Source of the DNA: Neolecta irregularis DAH-3
Taxonomy: Eukaryota; Ascomycota; Neolectomycetes; Neolectales; Neolectaceae
Direction of reading: 5' to 3'
NCBI GenBank assembly: GCA_001929475.1
Contig: LXFE01000695.1
Location: 192 to 39,095 of the forward strand
Length of the DNA: 38,904 nt
Shown: one piece after another, positions 304 through 21,659 of the stretch
Position numbering within the stretch: the first letter of the stretch is position 1
Layout: each line of letters begins with the position of its first letter
The notes under the pieces: generated by a model
What the model was told of the DNA's origin: nothing
What the model saw: only the letters and a program-made list of their open reading frames with translations
The model's database searches: none
Program-made: the position numbers and the translations under genes

Positions 304-3300
304 ATGCTCCGCCGCACTGCCGCCCTGCGGCCCCGCCTCCCACCCGCGCTCTTCCGCACACAGGCCACTAAACAGCGCTCCAGAAAAGACCTGCAGTCCC
401 CCCTCCCGCCCTCGCCAGAGACCGTCTACGACAAATCCAAACTCTTCGACAGCGTGCAGTCCCTCGTCGCCTCGAAAAATCTGCCCCGGGTCAACAACTA
501 CGACGCAAAATCAACAATTACACGGGCCCTCGGCCTCTCAACATACAACGTCTCCAAACGCAGACTCGCAACTTCCCAATCCTGCCCCTGGGCCTGGGAG
601 GCCCTCGTAGACATCCGCATCGACAAGTCCCGCTGCCTAGAGTCCCTTGGCCACGGCCCCTCCAGTGCAGATGCAGTCGCTTGCGCTTGGTTACACGCCC
701 TCTTGGAAATCTACTCCTCCCCTTTGATCGATCAGCTGCACGACCCAAACGATCCCCTGCGTACTTCCTCCGTCACAGACACCCTCTGGTCCTCAGAACA
801 GGATGCCCTCAAAGACGTCTACGACTACTGCGGCCGCTTTGACGAAACTCCCCTCATAAACAGAAGTAACCCCCGCCGCGACCAAGAAATTACGGTGGAA
901 ATATCCCTGCCAACTCAAAATATAATTGCCCGTGGCGCCTCAAAAAGTGTCATAAACGCCCACATCCTCGCCGCAATCGCCTTCAAACAGGCTGCTGAAG
1001 AATACCACAAAGAACACGGCCAGTCAGACCTCCTCGTCAAAGACCTCTCTCATCTCTCTACCCAAACAGCAATGACGTTTCTCGAATTCAGATCAATGAA
1101 ACTCAGACTCTCCCATCCCCGCTCCACCCTCCACAAATCCCCCATTAAAGGCCTCTGGGCCGCTTCAGTCTCCATCGCAGACAAGGAACTCGGCTCCGTA
1201 GATATGACCTCAAAAAAACACGCTGAAGAAGTCGCATACCTCGTCGCCGCAATAGAAGTAAAAAAAGAAGAACCAGACCTCTATAACGACTTTCTTAAAA
1301 CAATAGCTTCTTCCGGTGGCCATCTCCTCAAACCCCTCAAACCTTTCGATACAGAATTTGATAGAGACACCTTTGACGCCATGGACGACACCCTCTTTCA
1401 CCTAAAACGCCTCGGTTGGAACCCATCACACTCCCTTCCCCTGCCATCCATCACTCAACAAGATATCGGAAAAAGAATGAAACCCGCTAAACGCTTTTCC
1501 CAACCAGAACTTGGCTGCAAATCATTTCTCCTCAAAGCAAAATTGGAAGCTTACCATGCAAACGAAAACATCGCAGAATTGCGCGCCAAAAGAGCAGCAC
1601 TCCCCATGTCGGCATACAAACAACAACTCCTCGATCTCGTCAAGGACAATCCGGTTTCTGTTGTTATAGGCGCTACAGGCAGCGGCAAAACTACTCAGGT
1701 ATTATCATTTCAAACTAGACTAATACTAGCTACCCCAAATCATACTAGACAATGAAATTCAAGCCTGCAACGGCAGTCGCTGCAATATCATCTGCACCCA
1801 GCCTCGTCGCATAGCAGCGACCTCGGTAGCCTTGCGCGTTGCCAACGAGAGAAACGAACGACTCCAAGAAACCGTTGGCTACCAGGTTCGATTCGATTCA
1901 AGACCTCCCCAACCCAACGGAAGCATCTCGTTCTGCACTACCGGCGTTCTCCTTCGCCAATTGCAAGAATCAATCACCGAAACTCTTCGTGATGTCACGC
2001 ACATCATCATCGACGAAGTCCATGAACGCGACATTCAAATCGACTTTTTGCTAGTCATTCTCAAACGAATGCTAAAAGATCGCCTAGACAAAAATATTCA
2101 GGCACCCAAAATCGTCTTGATGAGCGCTACCATCGACTCCAACCTCTTTACTGAATATTTTCAAGATCTTTTTCCAAAGGGTACTGCCTGTCCTAAAATA
2201 GATATTCCCGGTCGCACGTTCCCTGTTGCGTCCCACCATCTCGATGAAATAAACGCAGACTTGAAATCGAGATATCCGGTTGCCCGAGCCCCGCTTTTAT
2301 ACGATGCCGATTCAAATATTTTCCTCGACCGCGAACAAGAATTTAAATTAAAAAATGATCGATCTATCGACGTCGTTGATCAAGCGGAAGACCGGGATAT
2401 AGGCGCCCGGATAAATTGGGATGGTAAAAGTGTAATCGGATTCAATGGTCTAATTCAACTTTCTACATCTCAAGACGACGCTAGAATACCGTACGGGTTG
2501 ATGGCTACGCTTATTGCCCATATCGCTGCAACTACAACCGAAGGCTCAATCTTGGTTTTTCTGCCGGGTCTCGTAGAAATTACTAATCTGCACAATCTAC
2601 TCGTTAGAAAACCGGTCCTCGATGCAGATTTAACGGATACGGAGAGGTATAGGATATACATGTTACATTCTTCCATCCCGCAAATGCAACAAGAAGTCTT
2701 TGATAAACTACCTCCTGGCGTCCGAAAAATCATCCTCTCTACAAATATTGCAGAAACATCAATCACGATTCCAGATGTAGTGTTTGTTGTAGATAGTGGG
2801 AAACACCGCGAATTAATGTATGACCAGACTTCACGGATGTCGAGTTTGGCGTGTACTTGGATTAGTAAAAGTAATGCCCGGCAACGAAGTGGAAGAGCAG
2901 GTCGCGTACAACATGGCCATTATTATTCAATGATGACTAATGAACGATTCGATTCTTTGCAGATTGCTTGTCAACCGGAAATTCTTCGAGCGGATTTACA
3001 GAAAATTTGTTTGGATATAAAGTTACTTGGAATGGGCGATTCCGTTGAAACGGTGCTGTCAGAGGCTATCCAGCCGCCAGATCCCGTGGCTGTGGTTACT
3101 GCTGTACAACATTTAATGGCGCTGGACGCCATGGATTCTAGCGAAAATTTAACTCCACTAGGACGGGTTCTCGCCGTTTTGTACGTGTCCCTTGAACATC
3201 TCGACTAATTGCCAGGCCAGTCGAACCTTCGCTTGGAAAAATGGTTCTTTTGGGAGTTATTTTCAAATGCCTGGATCCAGTATTAATCCTCGCCGCGTCA

Positions 3301-17199: not shown

Positions 17200-17580
17200 C
17201 TGCGAAAAAATCCGCCGAGATCCTTCGCGTATGGGACAAAGGATGAGTGGAAGAAACGACTCACCTACAGAGTGGCAAACAAGCACGGGGGTGGGAGGGA
17301 GGGTGCCTGCAGAAAAGGGCAGGCTCGCTGGTGGAGGGAAGAAATTACCAAGCTCGCCTGGTGGTGGTCAGTTGGTGACGCCGCTGATTTTACTGCAATC
17401 CGCAGGTCAGGGATTTCTATTCACATAGATATTTGCAAGGCGCAAGGATGGAAATAACGCGCTATTCTATACTGCCTACCTCTACAACCATTATCTGTCA
17501 TATCACTTGCAATCCTGCGTTTAGTGGCAATAGAAATTTTCCTAGGATCCATGAGCTCTCTCTTACACAGACTAAAGATC
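17200..17580. other. Region upstream of eIF4G, to the PDA1 stop
   Basis: On the minus strand this is the eIF4G promoter and 5' leader, C-rich close to the start, plus the 3' UTR of PDA1. Several frames are open on both strands because of base composition, but none resembles a protein family. Confidence 0.5.
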
Positions 17581-19309
17581 TTATACCTCCGGTATACGTC
17601 CCCGCAAGTAAGGTGGTTCGGATCCAGGCCTGCCTATATCAGAATCATGGAATACGGAATAACTCGTACACGTAGACATCTTTGAACAGAGTCTTTGGAT
17701 CTGCTGCCGGATCTGGCGATTTCTCTGCTTCCTTAGTTTCAGCCTCTACACGAGCCCGAGCTTCCTTATCAACTTCCTATTGGCTAATGAGATCAAGCTA
17801 GAGGTCGATTTGTACTTTCAACTGGAATTCACTCAAGACATTCCATTCCAAGATTTTTGCTTTGAGTCCTGCAATAGCATCATTTGTTGACCGCATATAT
17901 TGGATTTCCTCTCGAGTTCGATACTGCATAATCAGCTGATAGTCGAAGCTCAAACAAACCGTCACACCAGGGTCAGACATGCTGTGACCACCTTGATGGT
18001 CTAGTCATGTTTCACGTGAAGATCGCATACCATATCTATAAGTCTCAAATTCAAGGACCAGAGGTCCCTTCCCGCTTGTTGTCCATTCTTTGGCAAAACC
18101 ACTAGCATGTTTGACCGCAAGAACATCCATTCCATTGACTTTAATACCAGGAATATACTGCCCTCTTTTATAGTACTCCGTCAGAGCACTGCTTCTCTCA
18201 GCCGAAGTTCCCTAACATCGTTAATGTTGCTCTCTCGGCTCCTCTACCATGCCGTATTTGTTGTTCTCGCAGGCAAAAACGCAAGGTAGATCCCAGAGTT
18301 TGGCCATATTAAACGCCTCGAAAACTTGTCCTTGATTTGAAGCTCCGTCGCCATATAGCGTGAAGGCACAGTTGTCACGTCCCATATATTTGAGTGCAAA
18401 TGCTAGACCAGCACCCACAGGAACCTGGGCACCAACAATACCATTTCCTCCAAAGAATCCTTTCGTAAACATATGCATTGAACCGCCTGGACCGGTAAGT
18501 GCCTGTGCATATATCGTGTGGAACCTTTTCCATGCGCAATGCCGTCTTGGCGTCCTAGCAATTCGGCCAATATGGATTTAACCGAGCCTCCTCGCATAAG
18601 GGTGAATCCTAATGATAAGAGCAATCTAGAAAGGGGACATGCCATGACAACGATAAGCTGTGATAACCTGATCATCAGTTAGCAAACAACCTCCATCTCG
18701 GAATATCTTGCCATGTCCTCTATTTTGAGTCAGCAAACAGTAACGAGCTTGAAGAAATCATGCCCTTGGTAATAGCTTTCTCAATACCGACAGCGATAGC
18801 TTCCTGTCCAGTTGATAGGTGACTTGTCGCTGATTAGTAGATTTATTTAGGACCTGTCATTCATACCAGCTAAATGTGGTCAGCGATAAATACCATGGAC
18901 CAAAGAAAGGGAACTATACAATCCTCGAATTTTCTTTGCTTTGTATAAAGCATCTGCAGCCATCTCTAATCGTCGAATAGTGACCATATCGGTATACCTA
19001 TAAAATAAGAAACTGCTGGTGAAGGATGCATACATGGCAATTAATTCCTTCTTCGTGACATCCACCTCCAATTTCGGGCCATCCAATTTATAGAATTCGA
19101 AGCTGTCCGAAGGAAGGGTTACTTTAAAATGCTCATCGTCTTTTTTGGGCTTTTTTTTGACATCTGCCTGGGATGAGGCCGCGTCTATTGTAACTGTTCT
19201 TAGAAACTGCACCTGGTCACTTCTCGTTTTTTAAAAACCTTCGTACAGGGAGAGTTTTGTGAATTCTATTCGAAAAGAGGGATAAGCGGGCGAAGGGACG
19301 GGGCAGCAT
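17581..19309 (-). CDS. PDA1: Pyruvate dehydrogenase E1 component, alpha subunit (mitochondrial)
   Basis: Fourteen exons (19309-19247, 19212-19034, 18997-18920, 18869-18867, 18822-18764, 18719-18712, 18667-18643, 18608-18525, 18486-18248, 18211-18031, 17991-17960, 17923-17816, 17776-17670, 17629-17581) give 404 residues, the usual length. The start [18 protein letters not shown] is a typical presequence. Conserved blocks appear in order: [15 protein letters not shown], the GQEAIAVG block, [19 protein letters not shown], the thiamine-diphosphate motif GDGASNQG (about 211-218) with [14 protein letters not shown], and the phosphorylation loop GGHSMSDPG. The C-terminus [17 protein letters not shown] also fits. 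The enzyme decarboxylates pyruvate to feed acetyl-CoA into the citric acid cycle. Two exons are only 3 and 8 nt long and three introns are GC-AG. The gene is divergent from OMA1. Confidence 0.95.
18712..18719 (-). other. 8-nt micro-exon of PDA1 between two GC-AG introns
   Basis: The exon AGGACATG joins AAG-G to GTT-ATC and yields K-E-D-M-V-I-T-A-Y-R. This has exactly the three residues that E1-alpha proteins place between the ITK-like end and the (I/V)ITxYR block. Both flanking introns (18720-18763 and 18668-18711) are 44 nt, start with GC, end in AG and carry GCTGAC or GCTAAC-like branch motifs. Confidence 0.7.
18867..18869 (-). other. 3-nt micro-exon (CTG) of PDA1
   Basis: The upstream exon ends GGA-TT and the downstream exon begins T-CAC. 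Joining them directly gives G-F-H and loses the cysteine of the conserved GFCH motif. Using CTG as an exon gives TT-C, TG-T, CAC, which is F-C-H. The flanking introns, 18870-18919 (50 nt, GT-AG, GCTGAC near the end) and 18823-18866 (44 nt, GT-AG, ACTAAT near the end), each look complete. Confidence 0.75.
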
Positions 19310-19714: not shown

Positions 19715-20954
19715 ATGATATTTAGATTTGGGGTTTCCTCTATTTCCCGTCCATCCCGGGGTCTCCTCTCACTCCAACGACGATCTTTTTCCATTCAACC
19801 ACCTGCGCGATCGACATATTATCGAATTCCGCGCAGGCCGCAGTCCTCCCGAATCGAGAATTCCCCTCGGCGCTCCATATCATGGCGGAACCGTATTTCC
19901 ACATTTCTGATAGGAGGCGCGACTGTCATGGGCGGCAGTAGTATGCGCATTTGTAAAAATCTCTTTTTGAAATTTAGTTTATTTCGTCTCTCACCTCGAG
20001 ACCGTCCCTATGACTGGCCGCTGTCGGTTTATCGATATGTCACCAGAGGAGGAGCAAGAGCTATCCAAAGTTGCCTACCGGGAAATTATGACTAGATACC
20101 GAAACCAGATATTGCCTGGGAACCACCCAACATCCAGGTTCGTGAGCAATGTAGCTCAGAGAATTATCAAAGTCTCTGGGTTAGAAGGCCTGAGATGGGA
20201 GATTCATGTCATCGATAGTCCCGAGAAGAATGCATTCATACTTCCAGGTGGAAAAGTGTTTGTCTTCACGGTATGTTGAATAAGAACCGGACCATGCTGA
20301 TTTTCACTAGGGGATCCTACCCCTTGCACAGAATAAGGTACCATATATATTCCGGATCTTGTACTTATGCTTATAGGATGGCCTTGCAAGCGTCCTTGCA
20401 CATGGTGAGCCTTTTTTATATGATTTATTCCATTAACCCCAATGATAGAGGTTGGCCATCAAGTTGCGCGACATATTGCAGAACAAAACAGTTTTGGGAA
20501 AATCATTATGCTGGTTAGGTTGCTTTTGACTTTTACTTTCGGCGATTCTTTAGGTATTGGTGGGCTTGTTACAGAGTTTGGGTTGGCTATGCCATATTCT
20601 CGAAAATATGAATCTGAAGGTATCTCCATGAATATCTGGAATCTAACTGTTCAGCCGATTATATTGGTCTGCTATTGATGAGTCAAGCTTGCTTTGATCC
20701 TGGTGAAGCAAAACTCTTCTGGCAGAGAATGGCTAAAGCTGAGACGTCTTCAATGCCACAATTTGTCAGTACACATCCTACCCCAAAGAATCGATCGAAA
20801 AACATTGAGAAGTGGCTTCCAGAGGTATATTCCCCTACGTAAGACGCACTGGATATCTTAGGCATATGAAAACCGAGCTTCCAGTGACTGCGAATCTCAC
20901 CTTGGGGGAATTTACGATCAGTTTGTTCGACATACTAATTATGCAAGTTACTAG
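19715..20954 (+). CDS. OMA1: Mitochondrial inner-membrane metalloprotease OMA1 (M48 family)
   Basis: Seven exons (19715-19940, 19978-20270, 20311-20337, 20377-20404, 20449-20619, 20655-20824, 20862-20954) give 335 residues. An Arg/Ser-rich presequence is followed by a Gly-rich hydrophobic segment (TFLIGGATVMGG). YFVSHLETVPMTGRCRF is the conserved matrix-side motif of fungal OMA1. The zinc motif HEVGH spans residues 191-195 and is split by the intron at 20405-20448. The third ligand is in ESEAD (246-250). A hydrophobic segment with IIMLVRLLLTF lies between them. OMA1 cleaves inner-membrane proteins such as dynamin-like GTPases during stress. Two exons are only 27 and 28 nt long, so the HEVGH motif does not appear in any one long frame. 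Confidence 0.93.
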
Positions 20955-21659
20955 TGTGGTATTTCACATTTTTCACATACAGTATGGCTAGTGAGCATTG
21001 CATTGCGCACCTATTCCGATAATAGATTTCTTAGGAGGTCCAAAATCCAGGTCAAGAAGTGGCGTGCAAACCTGCATGACTTGTAAATAGTCTGTACCTC
21101 CTATCCATTTTCCCTAGTTGGTCGTCTTTCCTTATTCTAAATCTCAAATCTCTTCAAGTCACGCTAATTGCAGAACTTGTCACATATGGTTGTTAGCAAC
21201 AGGAAGCTGAAGTCTTGGACAGTTGAGTGAGAACAATGCTCTGAACTCAATACCTTTTCCTTAACAAAAGAGTTCCCAGCCTCAAGATTATGTTGACAAT
21301 ACCGAAATACCGAGGGCCTCGAGCTTGTTGACTACCAAAACCAACTCATTATTCAATTTGGATTCATCTCATGACATCAGTATCAACTACAGGTATCAAT
21401 ATCTGATATCAAGAAACAATTCCATATATCTTCTACAAAGGACTATCCTCAAAGGACCCAAATCTTTTTTTGGATATGTCCCGTGCACTAAGACATGTCA
21501 GCATTCCCACCCAGCTCTTAGCAATATCATGCAAACTCCGCAATTACAATCTTCCATAGCTACGTATTATCCATTCACATAAGGCATGATGTAACAAATG
21601 GAGATTCCTTTTCATTATGTAAGTTGTAATGAAGCGGCCGACCCTTGTGCTTTAAAATA
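20955..21659. other. Gene-poor interval (0.7 kb)
   Basis: This region lies between the OMA1 stop and the next minus-strand coding sequence. One 85-codon frame on the plus strand (21325-21582) has no family resemblance. A cluster of short GATATC/GTATCAA words occurs near 21375-21415. I see no tRNA and no transposon ends. It probably holds the 3' UTRs of two converging genes. Confidence 0.45.

Follow-up and report, generated by a model that had tools for sequence, protein, structure and literature searches.

A predicted three-nucleotide exon in the pyruvate dehydrogenase E1 alpha gene of Neolecta irregularis

The gene for pyruvate dehydrogenase E1 alpha (PDA1) of Neolecta irregularis DAH-3 appears to carry a constitutive micro-exon of only three nucleotides, CTG, located between two ordinary short introns of the U2 type. 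We assign this reading, which is drawn from genomic sequence and protein comparison, a probability of approximately 94%. The proposed exon occupies positions 18867 to 18869 on the minus strand of the window (the entire 38,904-nucleotide stretch of DNA that was analysed, placed within its assembly by looking up the pattern GGATTGTATG), where it would supply the third base of a phenylalanine codon and the first two bases of a cysteine codon. The intron upstream is 50 nucleotides in length (18870 to 18919, minus strand; GTATAG...TTTAG) and the intron downstream is 44 nucleotides (18823 to 18866, minus strand; GTATGA...ACAAG), and both interrupt the reading frame in phase 2. An earlier note on this DNA had given the same coordinates, lengths and borders, which proved correct when the minus-strand letters were read again and which were also returned by spliced alignment.

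The most direct argument for the exon comes from the protein that it would complete. Exon 3 (78 nucleotides, 18920 to 18997, minus strand) encodes a segment ending in KIRG followed by TT, with the final letters ...CGAGGATT at position 18920, and exon 5 (59 nucleotides, 18764 to 18822, minus strand) begins with TCACCT, the letters immediately after the downstream intron being TCACCTATCAACTGGACAG; both exons were placed by the aligner and in the joined model. Joining GGATT, CTG and TCACCT yields the codons GGA TTC TGT CAC CTA, or GFCHL, as the earlier note had argued, whereas removal of all 97 nucleotides (18823 to 18919) as one intron yields GFHL, still in frame. The cysteine restored by CTG is present in every one of the best 120 of 7,997 homologues, 119 of which read FCHLST and one FCHLSI. 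CTG would thus restore conserved protein sequence, and, being shorter than the limit of 15 nucleotides and enclosed by two spliceosomal introns whose ends are usable, it would count as a coding micro-exon. The conserved residue corresponds to position 66 of the human E1 alpha chain 1ni4_A, as counted by hand, and we take it to be Cys62 of the mature human protein, which we presume is linked to the active site. A literature search on the role of this cysteine in E1 alpha returned nothing on point.

The PDA1 coding region spans 17521 to 19309 on the minus strand and is modelled with 15 exons (63, 173, 78, 3, 59, 8, 25, 84, 239, 181, 32, 108, 107, 43 and 21 nucleotides) and 14 introns of 34 to 50 nucleotides. 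When joined, the exons form a reading frame that is open throughout its 407 codons and is followed by a stop codon. The spliced aligner spans 19203 to 17530; exon 1, the first intron and the final few codons were placed by eye. Among the best 120 of 7,997 matches, the predicted protein is approximately 72 to 74% identical, over 93 to 98% of the length, to named fungal E1 alpha proteins from Choiromyces, Tuber, Saitoella, Protomyces and Savitreella. It also matches the human structure 1ni4_A with an E value of 8e-125, and this full-length similarity, together with relatives that bear PF00676, identifies it as a pyruvate dehydrogenase E1 alpha. A search of the whole genome with PDA1 gave five matches, four at this locus and one elsewhere. 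The latter is 33% identical across 132 residues only, and no better copy was found in the genome. Another interrupted coding region of the window, on the plus strand at 20000 to 20960, is divergent from PDA1 and was judged by eye to resemble a zinc metallopeptidase such as OMA1. It contains the stretch VGHQVARHI. A DHX36-like helicase is encoded at 1832 to 3208 (plus strand), and its closest relatives among the matches listed are unnamed metagenome proteins with 52% identity.

To locate exons, we used an aligner that scores a protein profile built from the best 120 of 7,997 homologues and that demands of an intron only a GT or GC start and an AG end, ignoring all other splice signals. The CTG exon was returned at every intron penalty tried (-8, -12 and -16), and it also survived a run that permitted any intron ends at a cost. 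Its inclusion improves the coding score by 17 units over the best solution with a single intron, such that the aligner would drop the exon only if one extra intron cost more than this amount. That best solution, among 113 single introns of 20 to 150 nucleotides within 18768 to 18997, is the 97-nucleotide intron noted above; the runner-up, of 85 nucleotides, ranked lower still.

The splice signals that the aligner ignores were judged against other genes of the same genome. For this purpose, 19 gene-locus pairs were aligned to reference proteins (11 plus 8), from which 17 gene models with 91 introns were kept. A RhoA-like model was left out for one implausible gap of 1,484 nucleotides, as was an Arp3-like model with four introns, an unsuitable reference and one gap of 946 nucleotides. 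For Ran, the permissive model allowing any intron ends was used; the stricter model broke the invariant GDGGTGKT loop. The 91 introns range from 31 to 82 nucleotides with a median of 37, and only two reach 60 nucleotides. Their ends are GT-AG in 86 cases, GC-AG in three, AT-AC in one and GT-TG in one, and all percentiles were computed against the 89 introns with GT-AG or GC-AG ends.

By this measure, the two introns flanking CTG are largely typical. Both lengths fall within the observed range, as the earlier note had supposed, and each intron contains its own branch-like motif, a further point on which that note holds up. The motif of the upstream intron, CTGAC (18879 to 18883, minus strand), scores at the 100th percentile and that of the downstream intron, CTAAT (18833 to 18837, minus strand), at the 57th. 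The presumptive branch adenosines lie 11 and 12 nucleotides before the respective intron ends, and the median distance for the reference introns is 10. The acceptor directly before CTG is at the 37th percentile and the donor directly after it at the 72nd. Two sites are weak, namely the donor of the upstream intron (17th percentile) and the acceptor of the downstream intron (4th percentile), and the same two sites would also be used by a single 97-nucleotide intron.

Short exons are found elsewhere in these gene models. The 17 kept models contain 74 internal exons, the three smallest of which measure 11, 12 and 14 nucleotides, and CTG is the extreme of this set of short exons. The exons of 11 and 12 nucleotides are both in Ran, and that of 14 nucleotides is in beta-tubulin (L048, 1253 to 1266). 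In the Ran gene (reverse complement of L080), a correct reading requires two introns with unusual ends, one of 43 nucleotides with AT...AC (1099 to 1141) and one of 36 nucleotides with GT...TG (1693 to 1728). The former sits inside the GDGGTGKT loop and looks U2-like, with a CTAAT branch motif, and not U12-like. Three further loci are richer in GC than the window (GC content 0.445), with values of 0.593 (L046, contig C36), 0.511 (L081, contig C183) and 0.499 (L075, contig C263), and their introns are 31 to 36 nucleotides long and mostly end in CAG. A second organism may be present in the assembly, or base composition may vary within it.

We also estimated how often an equivalent arrangement would arise by chance. 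The 97 nucleotides were subjected to 20,000 dinucleotide shuffles with the ends fixed, and both introns were required to be at least 31 nucleotides long. Any three-nucleotide exon that restores GFCH was present in 131 shuffles, and one accompanied by a fair branch score (at least 5) in 18, but none of the 20,000 matched the branch and donor scores of the real sequence. An earlier set of 1,000 shuffles gave 12 cases with introns of at least 20 nucleotides, seven with introns of at least 34 nucleotides, and two when GT donors alone were also required. Across the genome, the pattern CTRAY-N4-9-YAG-NNN-GTATG matches 10 times versus seven times in a reversed control, which is no clear excess, and so the layout by itself proves little. 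The case for the CTG exon rests on the protein evidence and not on this pattern. One of the ten matches (C64), in a gene that looks like HSP60, is an ordinary exon start.

A very improbable alternative is that the 97 nucleotides (18823 to 18919) are removed as a single intron and that the E1 alpha of this species simply lacks the conserved cysteine. Such an intron has GT...AG ends, keeps the frame open and is the best of the 113 single-intron solutions. However, it would sacrifice a residue found in all of the best 120 of 7,997 homologues, would be longer than any of the 91 kept introns (maximum 82 nucleotides), and would leave unexplained an internal branch motif, acceptor and donor whose quality was equalled in none of the 20,000 shuffles. 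The preference of the earlier note for the micro-exon over this intron is thus favored by cysteine conservation, spliced alignment, branch motifs, donor strength, intron sizes and the shuffles alike. Even less probable is a spliceosomal twin intron (stwintron), in which one intron lies inside the donor of another and the whole 97 nucleotides are lost in two steps. These elements are known in Ascomycota, and one could imagine an inner intron that begins with GTTCCC (18914) and ends with TTTAG (18870), but the [D1,2] type, described as comprising almost all known stwintrons, needs GT after the first G, where bases 2 and 3 here are TA. Moreover, any such scheme also produces GFHL, such that loss of the whole unit deletes the invariant cysteine. 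It is equally far-fetched that an assembly error or gene decay removed the cysteine codon and left CTG as a coincidence, for although the assembly is a draft in 363 contigs and GC content varies between its loci, all 15 exons join into an open frame of 407 codons, no better PDA1 copy than the 132-residue match was found in the genome, and the shuffles indicate that the flanking splice signals were not built by chance.

A second micro-exon, absent from the earlier note, is predicted a short distance downstream of CTG. This exon consists of eight nucleotides, AGGACATG (18712 to 18719, minus strand), giving ITKEDMVITAYR. It was first placed by eye and then returned independently by the aligner that requires GT or GC...AG introns, and it is part of the joined model. 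The resulting protein segment, AITKEDMVITAYR, resembles forms found among the best 120 of 7,997 homologues, such as ITKEDSVIT, and omission of the exon from the PDA1 model introduces 17 stop codons. The exon would be flanked by two GC-AG introns of 44 nucleotides each, one before it (18720 to 18763, minus strand; branch motif CTGAC, donor at the 20th percentile) and one after it (18668 to 18711, minus strand; branch motif CTAAC, donor at the 4th percentile). A third GC-AG intron, of 34 nucleotides, is located at 18609 to 18642 (minus strand) in both the alignment and the joined model, and thus such introns account for three of 14 in PDA1 versus three of 91 in the other kept gene models. The rival to the eight-nucleotide exon is an 88-nucleotide GC-TG intron that would give KDDQ and that is preferred only when any intron ends are allowed. 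We rejected this intron because its 3′ end would come almost directly after the CTAAC motif, and we favor the eight-nucleotide exon since it needs just GC-AG ends, with a branch adenosine 11 to 12 nucleotides away. This exon is likely to be real, but we are less sure of it than of CTG.

How might an exon of three nucleotides be spliced? The earlier note held that splicing must depend on intron definition. The median intron length of 37 nucleotides is consistent with this view, although the mode of recognition is something that we infer. Given introns of about this size whose branch motif lies close to the 3′ end, each intron flanking CTG would be recognized across itself. The two would probably be removed sequentially, because three bases offer too little room for U1 on the downstream donor together with U2AF/U2 on the upstream acceptor. 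After the first removal, CTG would be joined to a normal neighboring exon and the other intron could be spliced conventionally. Of the two introns, the downstream one may leave first, to judge from its stronger donor (CTG|GTATGA). Skipping of CTG would preserve the frame and cost only the conserved cysteine. We consider it improbable, although conceivable, that regulated skipping serves as a one-residue switch to an E1 alpha without the cysteine and that Neolecta habitually tolerates exons only a few bases long and unusual intron ends (GC-AG, AT-AC, GT-TG) through strict intron definition.

Exons of this size are rare, but the description 'very rare' in the earlier note needs to be qualified, since three-nucleotide exons have been published in animals and one-nucleotide exons in plants and Fusarium. 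The comparisons that follow are limited to the portions of the reports that were available. One close parallel is a one-nucleotide exon, supported by RNA reads, in the Fusarium cytochrome P450 CYP621A (PMC12940212, which also describes an eight-nucleotide exon in a Phanerochaete P450). Like CTG, this is an ultra-short, constitutive-looking ascomycete exon that is needed for a conserved motif and is betrayed by an intron longer than the species norm. In contrast, the CYP621A exon restores the frame and is RNA-confirmed across 20 orthologues, whereas CTG can be skipped in frame and is known from the DNA of one genome.

In plants, there is a constitutive one-nucleotide exon in Arabidopsis APC11, in a report that gives the smallest exons known before as six nucleotides (constitutive) and three nucleotides (alternative) (PMC4674806), and micro-exons of 1 to 15 nucleotides include a one-nucleotide exon of VPS55 (PMC8831610). 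The APC11 and VPS55 exons are similarly constitutive, at the lower limit of size, in housekeeping genes and missed by annotation, but they are experimentally validated, and the introns flanking that of APC11 are longer than those in PDA1. Three-nucleotide exons of animals occur in mouse Ncam and Drosophila troponin T (PMC8042270) and in Drosophila homothorax (PMC7392893). Inclusion or skipping of each changes the protein by one residue without shifting the frame, as would hold for CTG, but those of troponin T and homothorax are alternatively spliced. Another ascomycete micro-exon, in Xlr2 of the filamentous fungus Trichoderma, is 20 nucleotides long and regulated by glucose, and the accessible text of that report states that functional micro-exons had not previously been described in filamentous fungi (PMC11121469). 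Our literature search, in which subscription journals were poorly covered, found no earlier report of the PDA1 CTG exon or of a three-nucleotide exon in a fungus. Tiny exons are therefore rare but already known, and CTG is a new example and not a new phenomenon.

For Neolecta itself, the available text of one study counts 4,202 introns in N. irregularis across 1,211 shared orthologues, approximately 26% of them independently acquired (PMC7940399). A term search of the main text of the genome paper (PMC5309816) found neither 'intron' nor 'exon', and fruit-body RNA-seq data for the species, in paired reads of 75 bp, are public (GEO GSE300630; PMC13263728). No Neolecta entry is present among the best 120 of the 7,997 PDA1 matches scored, and yet EF-1alpha from another contig of the same assembly (L071) is 100% identical, over 100% of its length, to a Neolecta irregularis DAH-3 entry in the same protein database. 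Loss of the tiny exons during annotation would explain this absence from the best 120 matches.

The interest of CTG is that its host is a fungal housekeeping gene conserved universally, that the introns around it would be only 50 and 44 nucleotides long and that a second micro-exon is predicted beside it. If the exon is real, PDA1 would offer a compact natural test of the minimum exon size under intron definition and of the order in which introns are removed. Furthermore, automatic gene models of the intron-dense Neolecta genome may lose exons such as these.
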